Positions 9,413 to 58,445 of a stretch of 64,000 bases of DNA are shown piece after piece. How positions within the stretch are numbered: the stretch's first letter is position 1; every line of letters begins with the position of its first letter. The notes under the pieces were generated by a model. The model saw only the letters and a list, made by a program, of their open reading frames with translations. It did not search any database and had not been told where the DNA came from. The position numbers and the translations under genes are program-made. Where the stretch lies: positions 12,911,253-12,975,252 of the forward strand of contig CM057161.1 in assembly GCA_029962745.1 (NCBI GenBank). The letters run 5' to 3'. The stretch comes from Echinometra lucunter (taxonomy: Eukaryota > Echinodermata > Echinoidea > Camarodonta > Echinometridae).

Positions 9413-11745
9413 AGAGAGAGACAGACAGACAGAGACAGACAGAGACGGACAGAAACAAGAGACAGAGAGAGACAGAAAGAGATAGAGAGCACGAGGAGGA
9501 AAATGAGAGAGATAGAGAGGCAGAGAGGGACAGAGATAGAAAGAGATAGAGAACACGAGGAGGAAAATGAGAGATAGACAGAGAGGCAGAGAGAGACAGA
9601 CAGGAAGAGATAGAGAGCAGAGGAGGTAAATGAGAGAGATAGAGAGGCAGAGAGAGACAGATGGAAAGAGATAGAGAGCACGAGGAGGTAAATGAGAGAG
9701 AGACAGAGAGACGGAGATACAGAGATACAGAGATAGAGAGCATGAGGAGGAAAATGAAAGAGATAGACAGAGAGGCAGAGAGATACAGAGATAGAAAGAG
9801 ATAGAGAACACGAGGAGGTAAATGAGAAAGATAGACAGAGAGGCAGAGAGAGACAGAGATAGAAAGAGATAGAGAACACGAGGAGGAAAATGAGAGAGAT
9901 AGACAGAGAGGCAGAGAGAGACAGAGATAGAGACAGAGAACATGAGGAGGTAAATGAGAGAGATAGACAGAGAGGCAGAGAGAGACAGAGATAGAAAGAG
10001 ATAGAGAACACGAGGAGGAAAATGAGAGATAGACAGAGAGACAGAGAGATACAGAGATAGAAAGAGATAGAGAACACGAGGAGGTAAATGAGAGAGAGAC
10101 AGAGAGAGAGAGATACAGAGATAGAGAGCATGAGGAGGAAAATGAGAGAGATAGACAGAGAGGCAGAGAGATACAGAGATAGAAAGAGATAGAGAACACG
10201 AGGAGGAAAATGAGAGAGATAGAGAGGCAGAGAGATACAGAGATAGAGAGCATGAGGAGGAAAATGAGAGAGATAGACAGAGAGGCAGAGAGAGACAGAT
10301 AGAAAGAGATAGAGAGCACGAGGAGGTAAATGAGAGAGATAGACAGAGAGGCAGAGAGAGATAGAGATAGAAAGAGATAGAGAACATGAGGAGGTAAATG
10401 AGAGAGATAGACAGAGAGGCAGAGAGATACAGAGATAGAAAGAGATAGAGAACACGAGGAGGTAAATGAGAGATAGACAGAGAGACAGAGAGAGACAGAC
10501 AGGAAGAGATAGAGAGCACAAGGAGGTAAATGAGAGAGATAGACAGAGAGGCAGAGAGAGACAGAGATAGAAAGAGAGAGAGCACGAGGAGGTAAATAAG
10601 AGAGAGAGATAGAGAGGCAGAGAGATACAGAGATAGAGAGAGAACACGAGGAGGTAAATGAGAGAGATAGACAGAGGCAGAGAGAGACAGAGATGGAAAG
10701 AGATAGAGAACACGAGGAGGTAAATGAGAGAGAGAGACAGAGAGGCAGAGAGAGATACAGAGATAGAAAGAGAGAACATGAGGAGGTAAATGAGAGAGAT
10801 AGACAGAGAGGCAGAGAGAGAGACAGATGGAAAGAGATAGAGAACACGAGGTAAATGAGAGAGAGAGACAGAGAGGCAGAGAGAGAGACAGAGATAGAAA
10901 GAGATAGAGAGCACGAGGAGGTAAATAAGAGAGAGATAGAGAGGCAGAGAGATACAGAGATAGAAAGAGAGAGAACATGAGGAGGTAAATGAGAGATAGA
11001 CAGAGAGGCAGAGAGATACAGAGATAGAAAGAGAGAGAACATGAGGAGGTAAATGAGAGAGATAGACAGAGAGGCAGAGAGAGACAGAGATAGAAAGAGA
11101 TAGAGAACACGAGGAGGTAAATGAGAGAGAGAGAGAGACAGAGAGGCAGAGAGAGAGACAGAGAAAGAAAGAGATAGAGAGCACGAGGAGGTAAATAAGA
11201 GAGAGATAGAGAGGCAGAGAGATACAGAGATAGAAAGAGAGAGAACATGAGGAGGTAAATGAGAGAGATAGACAGAGAGGCAGAGAGAGACAGAGATAGA
11301 AAGAGAGAGAACATGAGGAGGTAAATGAGAGAGATAGACAGAGAGGCAGAGAGAGACAGACAGGAAGAGACAGAGAGCATGAGGAGGTAAATGAGAGAGA
11401 TAGACAGAGAGGCAGAGAGAGACAGAGATAGAAAGAGATAGAGAGCATGAGGAGGTAAATGAGAGAGATAGACAGACGGACAGAGAGAGACAGAGATAGA
11501 AAGAGATAGCACGAGGAGGTAAATGAGAGAGATAGAGAGGCAGAGAGAGACAGAGATAGAAAGAGAGAGAGCACGAGGAGGTAAATGAGAGAGATAGATA
11601 GAGAGGCAGAGAGAGACAGAGATAAAAAGAGATAGAGAGCACGAGGAGGTAAATGAGAGATAGACAGAGAGGCAGAGAGAGACAGAGATAGAAAGAGATA
11701 GAGAACATGAGGAGGAAAATGAAAGAGAGAAAGAGGGAGAAAGCA
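9355..11745. repeat. Purine-rich minisatellite, about 2.4 kb
   Basis: About 35 imperfect copies of a unit of roughly 60-75 bp. Each contains GAACACGAGGAGGTAAATG or the AGCATGAGGAGG variant, followed by GAGATAGACAGAGAGGCAGA and GAAAGAGATAGAG. The left end grades into plain (GA)n at 9355-9420. On the minus strand all three frames stay open for 788-834 codons because the unit lacks stops. The translations are only Leu/Ser/Cys/Tyr repeats, so I do not call a gene. The strand asymmetry would favour triplex formation. Confidence 0.95.
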
Positions 11746-29106: not shown

Positions 29107-29116
29107 CGGGATCAAA

Positions 29117-29138
29117 TCGTCGTGCCGCTGGCAGAAGG
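29117..29138 (+). repeat. Left terminal inverted repeat core
   Basis: 22 bp identical to the complement of 41882-41903. Its inner end GCAGAAGG is also the start of the subterminal repeat word GCAGAAGGGCG, so the terminus and the array share a probable transposase-binding word. Confidence 0.9.
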
Positions 29139-29242
29139 GCTTAAAAATGATTTTCGGCCCCAAAATCGATTTTCGATTTTACATGCCATCTGATAAAGTT
29201 TTCCAAGCTCTATCAGATGATGTTATCAGAATCACCCAATAT

Positions 29243-29262
29243 TACGTAATTATTACGTAATA
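29243..29262. repeat. Tandem ATTACGTAAT palindrome
   Basis: ATTACGTAATTATTACGTAA is two copies of a self-complementary 10-mer just outside the left subterminal array. It could be a protein-binding site, and that is only inference. Confidence 0.5.
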
Positions 29263-29385
29263 CCCAAAAGTAAAAGGGCGTAAGCACGGAGCTCGTACTT
29301 TTGTACCAAGCAGAAGGGCGCATAGCGCCTAGCGCCCTTTTCACTTTCGCGCGCAGCACAAAATTGTGTTAAGCAGAAGGGCGGA
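29263..29385 (+). repeat. Left subterminal repeat array, about 62-bp period
   Basis: GCAGAAGGGCG occurs at 29310 and AGCAGAAGGGCG at 29372, 62 bp apart. A degenerate AAAAGGGCG copy lies near 29271. Each unit holds the complementary word GCGCCCTTTT (29332-29341), so each can form a stem-loop. The second half of each unit has alternating GCGC words and CAAAATTGTGTTA or its variant. Matching units form the right array at about 41435-41690 in the same plus-strand orientation. Confidence 0.85.
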
Positions 29386-29417
29386 ATTCAGAAAGTATCG
29401 TGTGATCCGTCGCTACG
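29386..29417 (+). promoter_or_regulatory. Probable 5' untranslated exon end and splice donor
   Basis: CGCTACG followed by GTGAGT at 29418 is a near-consensus donor. The next acceptor, TTTTGTTTACAG, ends at 30814, six bases before the strong-context ATG at 30820. Transcription could therefore begin in the subterminal array and splice a short leader onto coding exon 1. I see no TATA box. Confidence 0.45.
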
Positions 29418-29639
29418 GTGAGTTTATTTTCTTTTTAGTGACACCTTTGGCTTCTTGACATTTAATATCTAAACCCATATTGGTCACCAGAATAGCGAAC
29501 AATATATTTTGAATCTGATTATCCCCGGAATCGTAATTTAATCAATTAAAATTCAAATAAACAAGAAGCGATACAAAGTACAGTCCCTTGTATAGGTTTT
29601 TATGCTGCCTTATCAATAACGATGTATCTCAGTGTCGTA

Positions 29640-29980
29640 CACGTTTCTATGAGACATGTTAAGATCTACCTTAGATTAAGCAATGCAATATGTCTGTTCT
29701 TTCATCTTGGCTTCATCCAATTTGAACAACTTTTGTCCCGTTCACACCATAAATTACACGTTTCTATGACTAGTATGAGTATGAGATAGACTACAGATAG
29801 GCCTAGGTCTAGATCTAGATCTACTCTAGATCTAGTCTTGGCTTCATCCAAATTTGAACAACCATAAGTTACACGTTTCGATGAGATATGTCAAGATCTA
29901 GGCCTACCTTACCTTAGATTAAGCAATGTAATATGTCTGTTCTTTCATTTTTGGGCTTCATCCAAATTTGAACAACTAGA
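29640..29980. repeat. Internal duplication, period about 232 bp
   Basis: 29640-29732 and 29872-29978 share CACGTTTC(T/G)ATGAGA, CTTAGATTAAGCAATG, AATATGTCTGTTCTTTCAT and GGCTTCATCCAA. The copy separation is about 232 bp. It lies in the first intron of the transposase gene. Confidence 0.75.
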
Positions 29981-30310
29981 TCTAGTGGAGTAAACACTAA
30001 ATCTCTAAATCTAGACCTTATATAAAATTATCTAGATCTAGACATTAGGCCCTATTCAATAGATCTAGACCTAAATAATCTAGATCTCTCTGGAGCCAAT
30101 TTTAGTACCATTCATCCCAAGAATTCCTTACAAAAATGGTTTAAAGTTTAATCAATTATTCGAGAGACCTTGTTCCTCAGTACCAGACAAGTTTTTTTTT
30201 AGTCTATGTGCATGAGAGTAGTTTTAGAGATTAAGAATTACTTTTAGTTCTAATCTAGTTCTACTTTTAGAGGACGATCTAGAAAATCTAGAAATATAGA
30301 CTCTAGTCTA
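29790..30310. repeat. Dense TCTAGATC-type palindromic words
   Basis: TAGATCTAG, CTAGATCTAGA and relatives recur more than fifteen times between about 29790 and 30310, with scattered copies to about 30610. The words are self-complementary. This may be a simple low-complexity expansion or a cluster of binding sites. Confidence 0.6.
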
Positions 30311-30814
30311 AAACTTTGAATAAAGCAAAAGATAAACAAAGACTAAAACTTAGTCTTACCCTTTACGTACAATGATTTATAAATTAGAGTGTCGCACAGC
30401 CTATATACAGATATACTATCTCATGAGTGAAAGTAAGACTAACATTTAGATCTATATGTCAACAATATCTTTGGTTTCATTAGAATTGTTAAGGTTATAC
30501 TAAATATTAGTTGATCCATGGAGTGTACTGTGTAGCATGGTCATGGCTAAATCACATACTCTAGATCTCGGCCTAAGTCTAAGACCAAGACTCTTGTTAG
30601 GCTAGATAGATCTACATGTGAAGTAAATAAACACTTAAAAGGCATTGCATTCAGAACATAGTGATACATTCACAAGTTTTAATTAGAATCCGAAAGTAAA
30701 TTATTAAAAAATAAAAATACTAAACCTAGTTAGTTGTATTCAGCCTATAACTGAAACAATTTTGCAATGAGCTTTTAATTCATTATCATTTCACATGTCA
30801 TATTTTGTTTACAG

Positions 30815-31008
30815 GTAGGATGGAGAAAAACGAAGAAAGGCTGATGATTGTCAAATGGAAGAAGGATGGATCCTTCAATACCGTCTCTTCAAACGAGGTT
30901 TGGCACGGGAAGAGAAGCTACAGCCAGGCGGAACTGTCAAGATGAGAGACGAGAGAGGGAGGTGGTGGGCAGGAAAAATTGTCCGCATCCTGTCTCATGC
31001 TGCAAATG
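30815..31008 (+). CDS. Transposase-like gene, coding exon 1 (frame conflict)
   Basis: The acceptor TTTACAG ends at 30814 and the donor GTAAGT starts at 31009. The ATG at 30820 has a good context (A at -3, G at +4) and reads 41 codons, including LMIVKWKKDGSFNTVSSNEV, before TGA at 30943-30945. The frame that joins exon 2 in phase is the -1 frame. It is closed upstream by TAG at 30816 and has its first ATG at 30855, and it contains the conserved-looking GGTVKMRDERGRWWAGKIVR. Both halves look like parts of one small Trp-rich module, so I infer a 1-nt loss at about 30895-30930. Translation from 30855 or a programmed -1 shift would be alternatives. Confidence 0.7.
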
Positions 31009-31778
31009 GTAAGTAATTTCCTTGAGTAGTAAGTAAGCTTTAGGTTCATTTGAGTAAGTTAGCTCTGCAAACTTGACCCCCCCCCCCCCCCGAAAAAGTA
31101 AGAAAATATTTGATTCACTGGATACAATTTGCCTCATTTAGAGTGCATACAATATTAATAAATATATATATATAAAAGAGGAAGCTAAGATTTAGCTAAA
31201 ATTAATATGTTTTTACCTCTTGGCTCACTTTTCTCCTTAAAAATTCATATTTACATAATTGGTCACAGAAATTCTAGAAATAAAATCAAGACCATGGAAA
31301 TTAATCCATTCAACTTCAGAATCAAAGACTACGTCAATAATGCACAAAAGATACATCAAACACAAATCCCAAGAATTTAGTAATACAAATCAAACTTTTG
31401 GGACTTGCACAAAATCTCAAACTATACCTTTTGAATTAAGCTGTTGTGCAATGGGACATCTTTATCATCCGAATTGCATTTCTTTTGAAACCTAAGGTCA
31501 CAGAGCTATTGTTTCCGGGATACTCTCAATTTGGAATAATAGTCTTCAGTCTAATAAAAAAGGGAAATGGGGTTAGTTTCTAATATAACTTTCTATTATA
31601 ATCCGTTACATCTTATATTCCGATGTATTTTAAAATAGTGTGTAATATGCTTAAAGAAATCACTGTACAATATATAAACACATGTATTCGTATTTTATCA
31701 CTACTTCAAGTAATTGTCTTGAGAACTACCACCTGTGCTGGTATTTCCTAATGATTAGTAATATTTTCTCTCATTTAG

Positions 31779-31895
31779 ATGAAAGTTCTGTTCTTGGTGT
31801 TGGAGATGATGATGAAGGTGGTGATGATGGCATTAATGATGGTGAAGATTCTGATGAGAGCGATGGCATCCCCTTAACAGAACTGATGTACAAAG
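31779..31895 (+). CDS. Transposase-like gene, coding exon 2 (acidic linker)
   Basis: The acceptor TCTCTCATTTAG ends at 31778. The donor GTGATT is the weakest in the gene. At 117 nt it keeps phase 1, entering and leaving after the first base of a codon. It codes an Asp/Glu/Gly-rich segment beginning DESSVLGVGDDDEGG and ending LTELMYK. Such acidic stretches usually link folded domains. If not spliced, the frame would stop two codons later (TGA), and the good match to exon 3 argues for splicing. Confidence 0.75.
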
Positions 31896-32292
31896 GTGAT
31901 TGATAACCATATGGACCTTATTAGAGTAATTGGTTAGGTCTGACACGAAATATTTCTAAACACGACTCTTTCTGTGTTTCATTTCCTTTATAATTCATAA
32001 ACCAAATAGTTATTATAAGTATTGAAATCGGATGTTTTTCTGAGTGATAATAATCGCTATTCTAAATGGAATATTAAAATAATGATGTTTACATTTATTG
32101 ATATTGGTTTATTTCCGAAGACTGATAATTGACCAAGTTGGCAAATAATGGTAAGTCACTGGAAACAGTTGATTCCTGGTGATTGTACATTGGTCCAGAC
32201 GGCACATGGTGGTAATCTTTTGGCACTTTTGTAGACTATTAATAATTACTGGATGTTCATTGATCTATATACTTTTCTCTCTTCTCTATTAG

Positions 32293-32379
32293 GTAAGAGC
32301 AACCCTGATCCTGCTCCCATTGGTCATCAGCCAACTCTTATCACCCCTGAGAGTTCACGGGTGCAGACAGCACACGATG
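32293..32379 (+). CDS. Transposase-like gene, coding exon 3 (duplicated exon, copy 1)
   Basis: 87 nt, acceptor CTTCTCTATTAG, donor GTAAGT, phase 1 on both sides. It codes a Pro/Gln/His linker with NPDPAPIGHQPT and ends VQTAHD. It belongs to a set of three related exons (with 32550 and 32987). A degenerate further copy of its 3' end, CCAGACGGCACATGGTGGTAA, lies upstream near 32192-32212 and is not likely to be used. Confidence 0.75.
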
Positions 32380-32549
32380 GTAAGTTTTTTGGTCCTTCTG
32401 GAAGCTAATGATGCATTTTTATGTGAATCAAATGGTCTGGTGAACTATAGCTTAGCATGCAGGAAGTTAGTTTATGTTTCAAATGGTTATTACAATTTGT
32501 TGGATGTTTAGCTTCAGGAATCCACATACTTTTCTCTAATCTCTATTAG

Positions 32550-32648
32550 GTGAGAGGAACCCTGATCCTGCTCCCGCTCCCTTTGGTCATCAAGATCAGC
32601 CAACTGTTATTGCCACTGAGAATTCACAGGTCCAGACAGCACACTATG
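32550..32648 (+). CDS. Transposase-like gene, coding exon 4 (duplicated exon, copy 2)
   Basis: 99 nt, acceptor CTCTATTAG, donor GTAAGC, phase 1 on both sides. It codes NPDPAPAPFGHQ, then an Ile/Thr/Glu segment and VQTAHY. It differs from exon 3 by a 12-nt insertion and substitutions. The downstream intron also resembles the one after exon 3 (TGATGCATTTTT(A/T)TGT words), so exon and intron were duplicated together. Confidence 0.75.
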
Positions 32649-32986
32649 GTAAGCCCTTTTACTGTTTTACTAGTCCTGTAATCTAGTGATGCATTTTTTG
32701 TAAGTCAAATGGGCTGCTGAACTATACATTTTTTTACAAACAGAAATTAAATCAAGGTTTTAGATTATTATGACACTTTTTAGGATGTGTATCTTCATGG
32801 AACTATAGTTAACTCTGCGAAAGTGGAAGTCAAATTAGTTCAAATAATCGTCTAAGTCAAAAGCCAATCCTGGTTCCTTTTCTTTGTTTTCTTTTGTTTT
32901 GGACCCCTCATAAGTCAATTTTTATGTAAGTCAAAGCTATTTCTTCAGTCCCCACAGATTCAACTGTTTTTACTTTTCTCTATAAG

Positions 32987-33049
32987 GTGAGAGCAATCTT
33001 GATCCTGCTCCCATTGGTCATCAGCCTACTGTCCAGACAGCAGATGATG
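32987..33049 (+). CDS. Transposase-like gene, coding exon 5 (duplicated exon, copy 3)
   Basis: 63 nt, acceptor CTTTTCTCTATAAG, donor GTAAGA, phase 1 on both sides. It codes ESNLDPAPIGHQPTVQTADD, a shortened version of exons 3 and 4 that lacks the middle segment. Because all three are symmetric phase-1 exons, any of them could be skipped without changing the frame. Confidence 0.7.
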
Positions 33050-33842
33050 GTAAGATAGTTTCACCATTTTGTAATGTACTGAATCTCAGCATGCCAATTT
33101 TTTCCATGAAAATGTGCATCCACTTCAGGATGAATAATTAAATAATATAAATGTATTATTATGTTGGTAACATTTCATTTTACAGTCCATCCTCTTACTT
33201 CACTCTGCTTCAATCGAAAGTTTTATTAATATTATTTGATATTAAATCAACAAACTAACAAGCATCATCATCATACAGGTATAATTTTGTTAATCTCTTA
33301 TAATTTGATTGTAGGTACTTAATTGTTTAATAGCTGGGTTACAATTCTGTTATTTTTCATAAATATGATCAATATACCTAAAGCAATGGTTGATGATGAC
33401 CAAACAATGATTCCAAGAAGTATCTTGTTCTACTTTTCTCATAATAATAAACAAAACATTTGATGCTCTCCCCTATCTCCACCTATGACCATCCTCTGTG
33501 AATTGTTTGCAATAAGTATATTATATTTAGAAACAGTTAATGCTGCAATATAAAATAATGAGGATTACTTGTAGCTACTTAGAGGGTCAGTTAAATGCAT
33601 CAGATATTGCTTATGGACACCGTCAAGTGTCCCAATGATAGCTTAATATTTAAAAAGCAGCAAATTCACTTAAACAATGGAATGGTCATAATTAAGTTTC
33701 AATTGCATTGTTAATTATATTGAATTAATATGAGATGTATTAGAATGCTGAAGTGAATAGACGTATCCCCTTTTTTTTTAACCTTATTTATTTTGAGTAT
33801 TCTTTTCATAACACACAGTACAAAAACACTGCATGCATACAG

Positions 33843-33946
33843 GCTGCAAAGAAGAGATTTTTGCAGCATGTGTGAGATGTACATCTCTACTGTGCTGGGT
33901 CCACTTTGATGCTGATGACCCATGTGGAGACCACATCGAACTTCTG
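33843..33946 (+). CDS. Transposase-like gene, coding exon 6 (Cys/His zinc-binding type)
   Basis: The acceptor CATGCATACAG ends at 33842 and the donor GTAATT starts at 33947. 104 nt take the gene from phase 1 to phase 0. The translation has a C-x7-C-x2-C-x4-CWVHF-x5-C-x2-H spacing (CVRCTSLLCWVHFD, then CGDH). Four or more Cys and two His in 35 residues suggest a compact zinc-binding fold, probably for DNA or protein contact. The zinc-binding role is inference from spacing. Confidence 0.8.
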
Positions 33947-34561
33947 GTAATTACTTCATTTTCAGATTTCCTAAAGTAACTAAGGAACTAAGGACTAGGG
34001 AACATTTAGGTCAGGCCAGGCTGTTACAGCTAATGTATACAGGGCTGATTTTTAAAAAAAAAGTTCAGGTGCGGAGTTTACACACATATGACAAATTCAT
34101 AAGTGATAAGCAAAATCTAAATTGCAGCTAAGTTATTGTTTCGTATTATAATATATAAATAAATATCTGCTATCTTAAACCTTTACAGCAAGAACGATTT
34201 GCTTCTTGTTCCACGAATCTTTACTAGAAGAAGGATGCGATCAAAGCCTTTCCCATGCTGCACCGACTTTTAAGGAAAGTTTCCTCAGGCTATTTGACTT
34301 AGATGTGTCAGTTCAGTCTATGAAATCTTGAAGTCTGCTTCAAAATTCTACCCTTTTGAAACCTATTTAATATTTTTCAATAAACTGCTTACTGACAGTT
34401 CATGTCAGTTACCTAACTTTTCTTAATATAGAAATGACTCTGACATTTTAACAGTTATGTGCTTTATCAGAATACTGAGAATAGATAGTTCTTGTTACCC
34501 TTAGAAGTAGTATTATGTAATGCAGGATGACTGTCATATATGTGCTACAAATTTATTGTCA

Positions 34562-34727
34562 GGGGCCTGTTGCATGAAGCGTTTTTAACTGATAAACCTT
34601 AGGCTCCCCCCCCCCCCGGAGTTTTTTTTTTATTCCTGTGTTAAAGTTAATGGTGAAAGTCAGAATAAGGTGAATACTTAATGTTTACCATTTTTTATCA
34701 GGTAAAAAGTTTTACGCAGCACGCCCC
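34562..34727. mobile_element. Hairpin MITE nested in a transposase intron
   Basis: GGGGCCTGTTGCATGAAGCG at the left pairs with the complement of AAAGTTTTACGCAGCACGCCCC at the right, and TTTTAACTGATAAA pairs with TTTATCAGGTAAAA. It lies between coding exons 6 and 7, so it entered after the large element formed. Its end resembles that of the element at 1886-2774. Confidence 0.7.
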
Positions 34728-34794
34728 AGTAGTGTGACAGCAAGAAAAACAGTTTGAGTGATATTCAACATTATTTTTGTTTTTCTAATTACAG

Positions 34795-34872
34795 AATGAC
34801 CCCCAGCTAGCCATGCTAGTGAGGCAGATACAGGAAGAAGGAGTGACCATAGAGCCGAATACTGTTTCATTG
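34795..34872 (+). CDS. Transposase-like gene, coding exon 7
   Basis: 78 nt in phase 0, acceptor TTTTTCTAATTACAG, donor GTTAGT. It codes NDPQLAMLVRQIQEEG and then VTIEPNTVSL, likely a short helix followed by a linker. It joins exon 6 and exon 8 without breaking the frame. No motif is recognised. Confidence 0.75.
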
Positions 34873-35681
34873 GTTAGTAATATAATTTATTGATTGTGGG
34901 GGCCTTCTTTATGGATAAAAACTAATTGTCCCGGGGTTGCTGTCCTTTGATTAGTTATTCGTATAATTGCACAGAGAGTAATTTTAAAGGCCTTCTGAAG
35001 TATCGGTAATGGAAGAAAAATCTTTCGAAAGATTTTCTATCTCATGGTAATCCCACCTTAAAGCATTTTATGTTAAACATTGCTTCATGAAAATAATTCA
35101 GCTTAAATGTGCTAAATATTTGTAGAATATGAAGTTAAAACATGGCTTTAATCATTGTGTTCGCCACTCGGCATATATAATTATTTTATTGCAGTCCTGT
35201 ATAGGCTCTACTTTGTTGGTAATTTCCAACATGACTTATTTTGAAATTTCTGTAAATGAAAACATGTTATCCAGCTCTCAGCAAGACCGTTTTTCTACCA
35301 TAATGTTATTTTCTGGGAGATAAACAATACTGATTTCTAGGCAGTTTTTGTAAAAAACATATTGTAATGAATTCAAGTACTCCTGATAACGGATAAAGGT
35401 TTAATGTTGAACAGAGTAATACGGTCAATTGTGGCAAATTTAAAGTTTTTTGTTGAATATGTACCGGATTCAATATCTTTAATAACTGAAAAAGCTTGAA
35501 ACTGATTTAGTTGAAATTTACACTAGATGCCTAATAGTGTAGACATTTCTATGTTTTAATGCAGCTGTTTAGAGGTTGAGCATTGATTCATGTCTGCTGC
35601 AGACTGGCAGTCCATAAATATATGAAATTGGCACCATGAAATCCAAATAGTTGACAATTATTTATTTGTATACTCATACAG

Positions 35682-35762
35682 ACAGAACTGATGCCTATCC
35701 ATGTTGATGATTCTGGGGATGCACATACGAGTGCCCTGCCAGCCACTCCTCAACAATGTGAG
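35682..35762 (+). CDS. Transposase-like gene, coding exon 8
   Basis: 81 nt in phase 0, acceptor TACTCATACAG, donor GTAAGT. It codes TELMPIHVDDSGDAHTSALP and then a Gln-rich end. It is an acidic/polar linker between the zinc-type exon and the catalytic exon. No motif is recognised. Confidence 0.75.
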
Positions 35763-36363
35763 GTAAGTCATGTCCATGTGAGATTGTAACCAGATAATAT
35801 TTAATTTTTAAGATGTAGCTTATAAGATATATACAGTGTTACAGTATATAATTATATGTATAATATATATCAAGATCAATGTTTAATGTTTGTATAGACT
35901 TTGTGTGATTAAAAGTGCATTATTTTCTTTTTTTTTTGGGGGGGGGGCGATTGTGATATTCAAACTGTCCTTGACTCGACACTAAAGCGACAATTTTGTT
36001 TATTGGTGATTTTAATAATCACCCAATCACGGTCATTTTTCCGGTTGCATGAATCTCTATGAATGATTTGTCTTGGACCTAGACATATTGTCAGAAACAC
36101 TTTATACTAAACTTTCCAATATAAGTATGATTAAACTTCTATCACTGAATATGAACTTAGAAAATTATATCTATAATCTTCATGAATTCAATGAGTCTTA
36201 GAAAATGTCTTAGAAACGTCTTAGAAACCTAAACATACTTGACATGGTAATTTTAGGTGGATTTCATATTCTTCCATGATGATTTCCTGTCATTTCATTT
36301 TATTCTTTATTTTTCTCTTTCCTTCACCTTTGCCCTCTCCCCATTTTTATGAAAACTGCACAG

Positions 36364-38082
36364 AATAAGAAAGCAAAGAAAAGAATTGCAAGTCCAGATG
36401 AATGGAAGCAAAACGTTCAAAGAAAGCGACGAAACCTAGGACTTCCATATACTTCCAGAGACGGTAAGAAGAGAACTGCAAGGCAGATGGGGAAGCCATG
36501 TCCAGACAACTGCAGATTTAAATGCACTGAAAACATCTCGGAGCAAGAGAGAGAACATATCTTCTTGCAGTACTGGGGCACAGGCAGCTATGAAAGACAG
36601 CATGATTTTATTTGTCAGCATGCCCATAAGAACCATAAGAAACATGACAATCAAAAAAGGGTCAATACAGACTACTTTCTTCCTGTAAGGGGCCAAGTTA
36701 AAAGGGTTTGTCACTTTTTCTTCATCAACACCCTTGGCATAACACAAAAATCTGTACGGTACACACTTGAGAAACATGATCACTTTTCCAGTGATCAACG
36801 TGGTAGACATCCACCCAAAAACAAGGCTGATGAGAGTGATCTTGATCACATCAGGGCCCACATCAAAAAGTTCCCAGTTGTTCCATCCCACTACTGTAGG
36901 AGCTCAAGTACTCGACAATACTTGTCTAGTAATTTGAGTATCAGGAAAATGTACGACTTGTACAAAGATGAGACTCAAAATCCGAAGTCCCTTTCTCTGT
37001 ACAATAAAATCTTCAATACACAGTTCAACCTTGGCTTCCATCATCCCAAAAAGGATGAATGTAAAAAGTGCATTGAATACAATAACTCAACAGCACAAAC
37101 AAAAGAGAGTCTCAAGGAAGAACATGAAACCCATCTCAACAATAAGAAAATGGCAAGGCAAGAAAAAGACATTGACAAACAAAAAGCACTGAAGGATGAA
37201 TCATTCCACTCATATACCTTTGATTTGCAGCAAGTTCTACCTTGCCCCAAAACAAATGCCTCACTGTTGTTTTACAAGAGACAACTCTCTGTGTACAATC
37301 TTTGCTTGTACAACCAAGGCAATGGAGATGGTCACTGCTACATCTGGAGCGAGGTAGAAGGGGGAAGAGGTTCTGTAGAGATAGGGACATGCCTGCTCTG
37401 CCACCTTCAAAATCTCAGGGGTGTTGACCATGTTACACTTTACAGTGATGGATGCGGTGGACAGAACCGAAATCGGTTTGTGGTAGCAGCATTGCTCTAT
37501 GCTGTAAGGACGACGAATATCAAGACGATCGAGCACAAATTTCTGGAGTCGGGGCACACGCAAATGGAGGTCGACTCCATGCACAGTGCCATTGAATCTG
37601 TGCAGAAGAACATTGCCATATTCCACCCTGATCAATGGGCAGCTGCTGCAGCTCTGGCAAGACGCAGCAGGCCATATATGGTACGACAACTACATCATCG
37701 TGAGTTTGTCGACCTGAAGAAGCTGGCTGCAGACATTCTGCAGAACAGTGCCAAGGATGTGGATGGCAACAAAATCTTCTGGTCTCGCATGCGACATGTC
37801 AAGTGTGAGAAGAAGTCTCCTCACCTCATGCAGTTCAGATATTCCTTTGATGAGGAACTTCGTGAACTGCGAGTGGCCAGTGCCAGGAAGATGCCCCAGG
37901 TCAAGCTTCAATCTGCGTATGATTGTCCTCTGAAGATCGCTGCAAAGAAGAAGGCGGACCTGCTTGACCTGTGTGAGCACAATGTCATCCCACTTTCTCA
38001 CCAAGCTTACTATCGATCACTAATGTCAAAGAAAGATGAAGCAAATGAAAGTGAGGAGAGTGAGGATAATGGTGATGAGTAA
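36364..38082 (+). CDS. Transposase-like gene, terminal exon: RNase H-like catalytic region
   Basis: The acceptor (pyrimidine tract, then ACTGCACAG) ends at 36363. The open frame continues 5' to an ATG at 36349, but the five residues before 36364 are intron in the spliced model. It codes 572 residues to TAA at 38080. Numbering from that upstream Met: a basic N-terminus, CPDNCRFKC at 51-59, a helix-turn-helix-like stretch at 116-140, HHPKKDECKKC at 231-241, TFDLQQVLPCP with Asp292, FYKRQLSVYNL at 308-318, YSDGCGGQNRN with Asp367, GHTQMEVDSMHSAIE with His403, Asp409 and Glu416, and an acidic tail. Asp292, Asp367 and Glu416 are the best candidate DDE triad. I recognise the pattern as a widespread invertebrate family (DUF7869-like, from memory), which I infer to be transposase-derived. 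This exon shows no stop or frameshift. Confidence 0.85.
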   Translation, partial: NKKAKKRIASPDEWKQNVQRKRRNLGLPYTSRDGKKRTARQMGKPCPDNCRFKCTENISEQEREHIFLQYWGTGSYERQHDFICQHAHKNHKKHDNQKRVNTDYFLPVRGQVKRVCHFFFINTLGITQKSVRYTLEKHDHFSSDQRGRHPPKNKADESDLDHIRAHIKKFPVVPSHYCRSSSTRQYLSSNLSIRKMYDLYKDETQNPKSLSLYNKIFNTQFNLGFHHPKKDECKKCIEYNNSTAQTKESLKEEHETHLNNKKMARQEKDIDKQKALKDESFHSYTFDLQQVLPCPKTNASLLFYKRQLSVYNLCLYNQGNGDGHCYIWSEVEGGRGSVEIGTCLLCHLQNLRGVDHVTLYSDGCGGQNRNRFVVAALLYAVRTTNIKTIEHKFLESGHTQMEVDSMHSAIESVQKNIAIFHPDQWAAAAALARRSRPYMVRQLHHREFVDLKKLAADILQNSAKDVDGNKIFWSRMRHVKCEKKSPHLMQFRYSFDEELRELRVASARKMPQVKLQSAYDCPLKIAAKKKADLLDLCEHNVIPLSHQAYYRSLMSKKDEANESEESEDNGDE

Positions 38083-41000
38083 TGACAGTTGTTTATGTGA
38101 GGTAATGTGATCTATCAGGATCTTCATTCAGTTAAGCTGTATTAATTGACAATGGGATATATTATGCAAAACTATACTGTCAATATTCTTAAATCCTATT
38201 CCACTCAGTGTGAGGAACTGATGAAAGGATAAAAAACCTGAACTCACATAGTTGTGTTGAAGATCATACATTATTTATTAAATCCTATTTAATGAAAAGT
38301 CCAGGAGTGAAATCACACTTATACTGGAATAATAACCAGTACCTTCATGGGAACAGTTATGCAGCAAAAAAATATATCTCCATTCTGTGCTAATTAGTTT
38401 ACCAGTGAACAGAAGTGTGATCTGCTTGGGAGAACTTCATAGATTCTAAGATGTACTCTCTCCCCCAAATTAAATGCACCTGTTCGCAAACATATACACT
38501 TAAATTCCTACATTAAAAATAACTTGTAACACAATAAGACTGTCGACTCTTAACAAGCTAAAAATTATTTGACATTGCTATATCATAGATTTACAATTGA
38601 CGTAATCTATTTTTATTCGAGATAATGTCAACGACAATACATTGAATATTCTAGGGCTTGGGCATTTACAGTAATAGATATGTGATTATTGGGATTTTTT
38701 TTAATTTTACCTGGTTGCTAAAAGACGGAAAGTTATCTATGAACAGGCTACCAAGGGACCGACAGCTTGAAGTCTTGAAGTTTCTTAAGATCTTACTTAA
38801 TGATGATGAACCATGTCATTTGTTTGAGACAGTGTAAAATATTAGGGTTTTTAATTCAGAACTGAGGCTGAATTGTATTCCTTCACAATAGGAAATATGC
38901 AAAAATATATTTATTCTTAAATCCCATTCTACTCAATGTGAGAGAATGATCAAACGATAAGCTGCATGTGCTTAAAATTCTGTGTGTGTTTGTTTTTAGC
39001 TCACTTCTTTTTCTATTTTGTCGCTTCAATTGATAAACATTTTTTTTTGTTGTTGATTTATGAACTAATAGCAGAAAAGAAGAAAAAGCAGTATTGCTGA
39101 AAATATGCACAATGTTTAATACTCATCACAGATCAACATCATTATCTTTGTGTAATTTATGAACTTATGTACAGAAGGGTTTTTGATAATGGTTCTTATG
39201 TGTATCATAATGTTCTTGTTTTAAAGTTCTTTGGGGGTAATATATTGTTTAATACACATGTAAATGAATCTTAGTTAAGAAATTTGAATGTATACCAGAG
39301 AAATATGACAATTTAATTGTATTGTTGAAGTCATGTGAGGATAGGAATGAATGGACACTTTCTGCTATGTAGACTTTCGTCGTTTGTGTGAATTTTTTTC
39401 TACATTAATAGGAAAAAATATATACATGTGTAAATATTTTACCAAAATAAAATGATATTTGGATATATTTCTTGCAGGCATAATGCTAAATCAGTTTTCA
39501 GACATAAAGTACGCTGATCAATGAATATTTTGTCAAGTACAGCAATATAAATGAATTTTAAATGAGACACCTTACAATATTTATACAATGCCTGTCTTCA
39601 TGTGTATATTTGGGAAAAATTACAAATATGATTTCATATCAAGCTAATTCTAAAATAAACTTAATAGATGAATTACCAGACATAGAGTATTAAATTTTAT
39701 TCCTTATAATATATTTGTAAATTATGTGTGGTTTTTATAAGTGAACCAGTATAATATATATACAATTTGTGAGAAATAATTATGATATATCAGTATTTCA
39801 TTATTTGAAATATGAACATCCAATCAATTTAAATAATTAACAGATTATAATTCTTACAATATTTCAATTGAATAAGTGCTGTATCTGCTGTTACTCATAT
39901 GGTATTTTCATCAAGATAATGCTAGGTCTACTGCTAATGCCTTTGATAACAAGTTCGAAATACCCCTATTCATTTTAGATTAATATTATACGTATAAGTA
40001 TGCTATTTCATCAGTCAGTGTTGATAAATGAAAGTTCATTAAGTCCAGAGATGATCAGTTGTACACTATGTGTGTTTACAAACTTTAATCTTAGAGGGAA
40101 TCTTAGAAAATGAAAGTATTACCAACCTTCCAATTGACACTGAAGTTTGGTTTTTATCTTTGTATAAATTTGATATTTATATAGATTTGTGTGAAATATC
40201 ACAACTGGGTTGCTCACCATATTAAAGTGTATGTTTGTGAAATCAGAACATGTTTTTACCTGATATTTCAAATGCTTATGATAAGTTTAATTGATGTGAA
40301 AAATGTATGTGCTTTTTATTCCACCAAAGTCTTGCCACTGTTCAGAAAAAACATGATAAATGGTTATTATGAAATAAATATCAAATGTTTGAAACGTGAA
40401 ACGTTCACACCTCTATGCCTCTTTGATAATTACTCATTTGAGTGAATTATGACAATTATTGCAATATATTTTGAAAATCAATCTTTTTTTCTCGTTTTCT
40501 CTTCTCTCTTTACTCTCTTTAAAAAAACTAACCCAATACATGAGGAAATATAAGGTACACTTTCTAGCTATAAATGCTAATTTAATGACACTGATAATGA
40601 TAGTGATGCTGCTGCTGATTATGATGGAAATGATGATGTGGAGAAGTAGGATTATTAACTGGACATACCGTTTGGCTATACAAATCATGGCATAAAATAA
40701 GAATACATGATTTAAAGGGGACGTTTCCTTCTGGGTTGGAGGGTGCTATAGCAGTAATATAAAATCATTTGACAAGTTTTAATGACAACATAAATAATAA
40801 TTGATCGTGATGCCTAAAATTCATTTGTTTTTATGTTTATTAATTATATTTGGGAAGTCTTTTGTTTATAGGAGCACCAGGAATATAAGAAAAAAGGAAT
40901 TTTTTAACAAAAAAATAGGATTATGAATGCTTTATGCAAATTCATGATAAAGATAGTGTTTTGAATCCAATCTGCCGGAATAAAAAAATAGGATCTAAAG

Positions 41001-41434
41001 GACTCGTGCAATGACTGAATATTACTGAAAACATTTATCAAGGTATAATTTGCGTTGCAAATAGCAGTGTTCAGTCTTTGTCTCGTTTTCTAAAGTCTAG
41101 CACAGTCATTTATATTAGAAACTTAAATGATGCATCACTCTCGCCTAGTCAAGAATGATTAGGGTGGCAGAGGGAGGCAAAAGTAGCATAATTTTGAAGA
41201 AAAAAACACAACAATAACTTCTTAGAAAAATTATCTTGTAATCGAAACGCTAGTACGAACATTTGATTATCATGGTATAGAATAACACATGAAGTGTTTC
41301 CTATCCAATTCTGTAAAAAATAGTCCTGCTTAGTCATTTATGTCTTTGTAATTAAATATAAGTTTTGTAGCACTTTCTGGACCACCCTGTATACACGAAT
41401 CAATGTGAACTTTAATGCATACGAATATGCTTTA
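38083..41434. other. Transposon 3' region, no further gene
   Basis: Very AT-rich. The first canonical AATAAA that I see downstream of the stop is at 39446-39451, so the 3' untranslated region may be about 1.4 kb. A duplicated segment sits at 38165-38240 and 38888-38960 (CTTAAATCC(T/C)ATTC(C/T)ACTCA). A possible decayed SINE piece lies at 38746-38812 (CTACCAAGGGACCGACAGCT). No second open frame looks protein-like. Confidence 0.6.
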
Positions 41435-41695
41435 CGCCCTTTTACAAGCTCTTTTTACTCGTAGCACTAATTTTTCATTTAAGCAGAAGGACGCAACACG
41501 CATGCGCCCTTCTTTTACAGTATGCGCATGGCCAATGTGAATTAAGCAGAAGGGCGCAACATGCTATGCGCCCTTCCTTTACAGTATGCGCACGTTAATG
41601 TGATTTAAGCAGGAGGGCGCAAAGAGCTATTCGCCCTTTTGCTTAGAGCGCGCGCACAGTAGTGTGATTTAAGCAGAAAGGCACAGGCAATAAAT
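41435..41695 (+). repeat. Right subterminal repeat array, 63-64-bp period
   Basis: AGCAGAAGG(G/A)CGC or close variants start at 41482, 41545, 41608 and 41672, spaced 63, 63 and 64 bp. A degenerate copy with CGCCCTTTT lies at 41435. Each unit includes the complement (GCGCCCTTCTTT at 41504, GCGCCCTTCCTTT in the next unit), then ACAGTATGCGCA and AATGTGATTTA. These match the left array at 29263-29385 in the same orientation. Confidence 0.9.
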
Positions 41696-41881
41696 TGCGT
41701 TTATCTTTAAAAGTATTAATTCATATGACACAAAAATTTGAAGAGTCTAACTTTATGAGTACTCTTATAAACATGTGCATTTTCAAAGTAATTCAACGTA
41801 TTTTCGCGGAGACAAATAACTTTTACCCTTTAAATGCGATTTTCTCAAAAGTGTGTTTTACAGGCGCTCGCGTGCTTACGA

Positions 41882-41903
41882 CCTTCTGCCAGCGGCACGA
41901 CGA
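41882..41903 (-). repeat. Right terminal inverted repeat core
   Basis: Perfect complement of 29117-29138. It is followed outward by AATCCCG, matching the complement of the left CGGGAT with a 3-bp length difference. Confidence 0.9.
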
Positions 41904-41909
41904 AATCCC

Positions 41910-41976
41910 GGCGGTCTCAGGCCCCGAGACGGTTCCGGTATCAATCGATTGAGACCGTATCCCGGCAGAAAAAATA
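41910..41976. repeat. Palindromes outside the right terminal repeat
   Basis: GGTCTC...GAGACGG (41912-41932) and CGGTATCAATCGATTGAGAC (41937 onward) are each nearly self-complementary and end in CCCGGCAG. The left side has only a partial counterpart, CCGGTCCGGAATCGGG at 29095-29110. They may be the true outer tip of the element or part of the target. Confidence 0.5.
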
Positions 41977-58079: not shown

Positions 58080-58445
58080 TGAGGGATCGGGGAGAAGAAA
58101 GTAGGGGAGAGGTGAGAGGGATATGGATGAGGTGGGGGACTGCGAGAGGGGAGAAAGAGGAAGGATGAGGATGTGATGAGGTGGTGCATGCAGGTGGAGA
58201 GGGAAAAGTAAAGAAAAACAAAGGGAAAATGAAAGAAACTGAATATGTACATGTCAGTGAAGGAGGGATGAGGGGAGAAGAAAGTAGGGGAGAGGTGAGA
58301 GGGATATGGAGAAGGTGGGGGACTGCGAGAGGGGAGAAAGAGGAAGGATGAGGATGTGATGAGGTGGTACATGCAGGTGGAGAGGGAAAAGTAAGGAAAA
58401 ACAAAGGGAAAGTGAAAGAAACTGAATATGTACATGTCAGAGAAG
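58080..58445. repeat. Tandem duplication, period about 184 bp, purine-rich
   Basis: Two copies of a unit containing GGGGAGAAGAAAGTAGGGGA (58089 and 58273), GGGGGACTGCGAGAGGGGAG and GAATATGTACATGTCAG. They differ at only a few positions, so this is recent. The paired minus-strand Ser/Pro-rich frames reflect the duplication. Confidence 0.9.

Follow-up and report, generated by a model that had tools for sequence, protein, structure and literature searches.

Sola2 transposons of dictyostelids (families DFa and PPa) have 4-bp AT-rich target-site duplications of the type AWWT (ATAT, AAAT, and ATTT), terminal inverted repeats (TIRs) of 12-21 bp, and identical stretches of 7 kb, as described in the available portion of PMC3627910. 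Giant KDZ, EnSpm, and Sola-1 elements, most of which contain nested insertions or accessory genes, reach maximum lengths of 15.2-30.3 kb in the available portion of PMC12477816. In this study, we analyzed a 64,000-nt stretch of the sea urchin Echinometra lucunter genome (GCA_029962745.1, contig CM057161.1, positions 12,911,253 to 12,975,252 of the forward strand; hereafter the window, whose own coordinates are used throughout) and found that it harbors a 12,785-bp DNA transposon with a nine-exon gene, the last exon of which encodes a DUF7869 domain. Similar to the giant elements in the available text of PMC12477816, this element is longer than 10 kb; unlike them, it owes its length mostly to one intron-rich gene and non-coding DNA. 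Because of the lengths reported for those elements, the view of a first-pass annotation of the window that such a length is unusual cannot be maintained. No Fanzor gene turned up in the element, although no search was aimed at one.

We consider it likely, with a probability of about 0.8, that this is a TIR DNA transposon whose DUF7869 gene makes its DDD transposase and which moves by cut and paste. That it is a real, complete-ended, and recently mobile giant DNA transposon is evident from its ends and copies. Its perfect TIRs, which begin with CGTCG, are directly abutted by an AAAT target-site duplication on both sides (Table 1). The first-pass annotation had read the inverted repeat as 22 bp long; a perfect repeat is indeed present, but it measures 21 bp, and the 22nd base (T/A) belongs to the duplication. 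Copy searches covered the host's own 743-Mb assembly and gave 20 left-end matches, nine of which (including the window copy) show 99-100% identity, as well as 12 places (13 rows) matching the right end at 97-100% identity. The eight other near-identical left-end copies were fetched and compared with the window copy. Six of these nine copies have both ends, with lengths of 12,785 (window), 13,651, 13,556, 13,551, 12,216, and 15,336 bp, and all six are flanked by perfect 4-bp duplications (AAAT, ATAT, CATT, ATTT, TATT, and AACT); a T adjoins the left TIR in all nine. Substitution divergence is 0.20-0.43% among the six complete copies (15 pairs) and 0.20-1.21% over the alignable parts of all nine (36 pairs), and the first 420 bp of each of the eight other copies contain 0-1 substitutions compared to the window copy. 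The low divergence among the complete copies indicates that this family has moved very recently. In one copy (C14), approximately 1.8 kb of foreign DNA, likely a nested insertion, lies between exons 7 and 8 (element position ~6080).

Insertion could be followed directly in copy C13, which is located in a high-copy repeat. When the flanks of this copy are joined by one ATTT, 40 scored places (of 560 candidates) match the joined sequence at 96-99% across the junction. All 10 of the paralogous empty sites that were read carry a single ATTT and an ungapped junction, which directly shows insertion with a 4-bp duplication. The base preceding ATTT is C in these 10 sites, compared to T in the C13 flank. 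The target repeat itself is about 160 bp long and occurs in at least 40 near-identical genomic places (560 candidates). For the window copy, a BLAST search of the joined flanks and the element ends against the window revealed neither a second copy nor an empty site.

Places with only a left or only a right end also occur, and they might suggest that separate repeats and a gene were joined by chance or by host duplication without forming a single element. Three left ends (C427, C15, and C4) have no right end in the fetched stretches: C427 lies on a short contig that ends inside the element, and the alignments of C15 and C4 break off inside it. Six right ends (C12, C18, C21, C1044, C2226, and C61), some of them on short contigs, have no left partner among the left-end matches. 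The left partners of C12, C18, and C21 were sought at the expected place in one 3-kb stretch each, and none was found. Comparison of further stretches showed that C12 is alignable only from element position ~3685, and C21 is alignable from position ~5209, which is the start of the fetched stretch. Such a chance assembly is already refuted by six two-ended copies that lie in different flanks and have perfect duplications, together with the clean empty sites of one of them, and its probability is negligible. Thus, the search for copies sharing both ends that the first-pass annotation had suggested returned six, one of them with paralogous empty sites, and copies, duplications, and empty sites agree with the single large element it had proposed.

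With regard to the coding part, exon 9 matches DUF7869 (PF25273) with 33.3 bits, above the Pfam cut-off of 26, as the suggested comparison of its protein with this family had anticipated. Its predicted structure resembles retroviral integrases and transposases (VIA-align rows); Foldseek alone gave a weak likeness. Exon 9 is predicted to form an RNase H-like catalytic core, with Asp291, Asp366, and Asp408 as the proposed catalytic residues (Table 1) and Glu406, kept in 117 of 120 homologues, as an alternative to the third. We infer, with good support, that the DUF7869 protein is the element's own DDD transposase. A search of NCBIfam with the exon-9 reading frame gave no family, and a PDB sequence search with the catalytic part produced a single unrelated match (E 0.12). 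One scan of viral contigs found 40 stretches with the pattern, none of which encodes a relative, and DUF7869 is unmentioned in the literature searched.

The nine exons lie in the consistent order proposed previously: they have AG/GT borders, consistent phase, and one frame, and the model is supported by the module order of echinoid homologues. With exon 1 taken as in copy C16, it yields 844 amino acids plus a stop codon. In the window copy, the frame of exon 1 is broken because this exon is 2 bp longer than in all seven other copies compared; apart from these extra bases, the earlier description of the element as near-complete falls short, since both ends are complete. The lengths of exons 2-5, 7, and 8 are all divisible by three, so that a changed number of these exons would preserve the frame. 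Exon 8 is single in two copies (the window copy and C1) and double in the other seven. In addition, a piece at 32192-32216, upstream of exon 3, resembles the ends of the repeat exons and is perhaps a decayed repeat exon.

Only the window copy, one of nine, has an uninterrupted exon-9 frame. Stops or frame breaks were found in seven of the other copies, and the eighth (C4) has no match within the fetched part; many of the breaks are short insertions or deletions, which may be assembly errors. Among the compared copies in the assembly, none was shown to have every exon open. As exon 9 is mostly interrupted, most copies may depend on protein made elsewhere. The same interruptions favor an alternative in which the transposon is non-autonomous, the DUF7869 gene is a captured host gene carried as cargo, and another transposase moves the ends. 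This appears quite improbable to us, given that the predicted RNase H-like core and the Asp triad are conserved across the 120 homologues, that echinoid homologues retain the module order, and that the gene occupies the element and occurs in the complete copies.

The subterminal arrays reported in the first-pass annotation were recovered at both ends: the right array has a period of 63 bp (41479-41638, 2.5 copies, Tandem Repeats Finder (TRF) score 220), and two related units form its left counterpart. Allowing up to one mismatch, GCAGAAGGGCG occurs 10 times in the window (0.30 expected from shuffles), with eight occurrences at the element ends: one in each TIR, two others at the left end, and four others at the right end; the remaining two lie outside the ends. 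Similarly, the ends hold nine of the 10 occurrences of AAGGGCG. Hairpins in these arrays, which had also been claimed, fold partly beyond shuffles: two of the four array stretches have z-scores of -3.43 and -2.90, but the others reach only -0.86 and -1.04. The GCAGAAGGGCG/GCAGAAGG pattern fits a candidate transposase binding site. In the mechanism we propose, the protein would recognize the GCAGAAGG motif that the TIRs have in common with the subterminal arrays, pair both ends, and then excise the element; insertion would take place at AT-rich sites with a 4-base stagger, and the Tudor-like module described below might bias the choice of site via modified histones. A second family of left ends is present in the same genome (11 matches to this element's left end at 69-73% identity, or 67-72% when the whole end is compared), with a TIR like CGTCGCCTCGCCGGCAGAAGG. 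In this family, GCAGAAGG is kept in the TIR in nine of the 11 matches, and another GCAGAAGG is found in all 11; where both are present, the second one lies 166-182 bp further in.

We also examined the possible superfamily of the element. Sola transposases are DDD enzymes, and Ginger, Chapaev, and Academ were weighed as further candidates by duplication length. Judged from duplication and TIR length, the element is probably Sola2-like: it has the AT-rich duplications AAAT, ATAT, and ATTT in common with the dictyostelid families, its TIR length lies within their range, and both are multi-kilobase elements (available portion of PMC3627910). Half of its six duplications fit AWWT, whereas AACT, CATT, and TATT fall outside, and the likeness concerns the ends; the nine-exon gene, the Tudor-like module, and the subterminal arrays distinguish the element from dictyostelid Sola2 as described in that portion. 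The three outlying duplications would be more in line with another superfamily having 4-bp or 3-4-bp duplications (Ginger, Chapaev/EnSpm, or Academ) or a still unnamed one, and an integrase-like family would likewise account for the likeness to retroviral integrases. We consider this alternative less likely. The CGTCG start is unlike the CACTA-like start typical of EnSpm elements. Moreover, dictyostelid Sola2 agrees with this element in its duplications and in its TIRs, which reach 21 bp, as far as the available text of PMC3627910 describes them.

At the other end of the protein, a profile search against PDB gave agenet (E 2.6e-4) and the KDM4C Tudor domain (0.12) as top matches. Exon 1 alone had a weak PDB match (E 0.3), its structural likeness to Tudor/agenet domains is weak, and no Tudor model was matched in a Pfam scan. 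These comparisons make a Tudor/agenet-like module in exon 1, as a putative chromatin reader, a good lead. According to the available portion of PMC12477816, a Tudor-type module is also fused to the integrating enzyme in Gypsy-10_Ec32 of Ectocarpus; that element is a long terminal repeat (LTR) retrotransposon whose Tudor domain is C-terminal, whereas the present one is a TIR DNA transposon in which the Tudor-like module is N-terminal. If the module is a reader, DNA transposons would have acquired chromatin targeting by fusion, like chromodomain retrotransposons. A broader proposal, which we put forward tentatively and would not yet bet on as a whole, is that this is the first DNA transposon with a transposase-borne Tudor-type reader steering 12-15-kb elements to marked chromatin, that the frame-neutral repeat exons provide an adjustable linker between reader and core, and that the invertebrate DUF7869 family is made up of DDD transposases and domesticated proteins descended from them.

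The closest named homologues were found in sea urchins, and in a homologue search from divergent members, aimed at Sola2 hosts such as dictyostelids, the named ones among the 120 of 305 matches listed were animals. The Strongylocentrotus purpuratus LOC105442032 protein (P0002) has 60% identity and a module order like that of the element: WKKDG..RRWEG, an acidic stretch with IPLAQL, repeats, a zinc-finger-like cluster, and DUF7869. Homologues in Lytechinus and Diadema have a similar order, from a WKKDG..W.G module through the acidic stretch and the repeats to the zinc-finger-like cluster and DUF7869, and all of these proteins are annotated as uncharacterized. One homologue (P0005) is without the zinc-finger-like cluster. 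The peptide repeats differ from those of the element, with nine exact PMATPCEKSTE units in P0004 and six copies of a different unit in P0002. A Pfam domain of unknown function that is frequent in invertebrate gene annotations is now tied to a mobile element with exact ends, and therefore many genes for "uncharacterized proteins" are likely transposases or their descendants. Among other DUF7869-type relatives, P0010, P0011, P0014, P0015, P0022, and P0027 have a preceding OTU protease domain, and further relatives bear PF04843.

Table 1. Features of the transposon and its gene in the window copy
Feature	Position	Strand	Remark
Left target-site duplication AAAT	29114..29117	.	identical 4 bp at each end; perfect in 6/6 two-ended copies
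Whole element, 12,785 bp	29118..41902	+	both end sequences recur in 6 copies with different flanks
Left 21-bp TIR, contains GCAGAAGG	29118..29138	+	
Left subterminal repeat units (GCAGAAGGGCG)	29308..29386	+	
Exon 1, putative Tudor/agenet-like module; frame broken in window copy	30820..31008	+	
Exon 2, acidic stretch and IPLTEL	31779..31895	+	P0002 has matching order
Exon 3, repeat exon, 87 nt	32293..32379	+	
Exon 4, repeat exon, 99 nt	32550..32648	+	
Exon 5, repeat exon, 63 nt	32987..33049	+	
Exon 6, zinc-finger-like Cys/His cluster	33843..33946	+	Tc5_C-like match below cut-off
Exon 7, 78 nt	34795..34872	+	
Exon 8, 81 nt	35682..35762	+	
Exon 9, DUF7869 part, predicted catalytic; open in window copy	36364..38082	+	
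Asp291 codon, proposed first catalytic residue	37222..37224	+	kept in 118/120 homologues
Asp366 codon, proposed second catalytic residue	37447..37449	+	kept in 119/120 homologues
Asp408 codon, proposed third catalytic residue	37573..37575	+	kept in 119/120 homologues
Right subterminal repeat units, ~63 bp spacing	41479..41702	+	
Right 21-bp TIR	41882..41902	-	
Right target-site duplication AAAT	41903..41906	.	

The left flank of the element was also considered as a possible tRNA arm and rejected, as scans for tRNA genes and Rfam families gave no match anywhere in the window. Two other repeats were observed in the window. A purine-rich minisatellite at 9458-11728 consists of about 35 copies of 66-bp units and gives rise to long chance reading frames on the opposite strand, and a 183-bp unit is present in two copies with 95% matches at 58081-58445.

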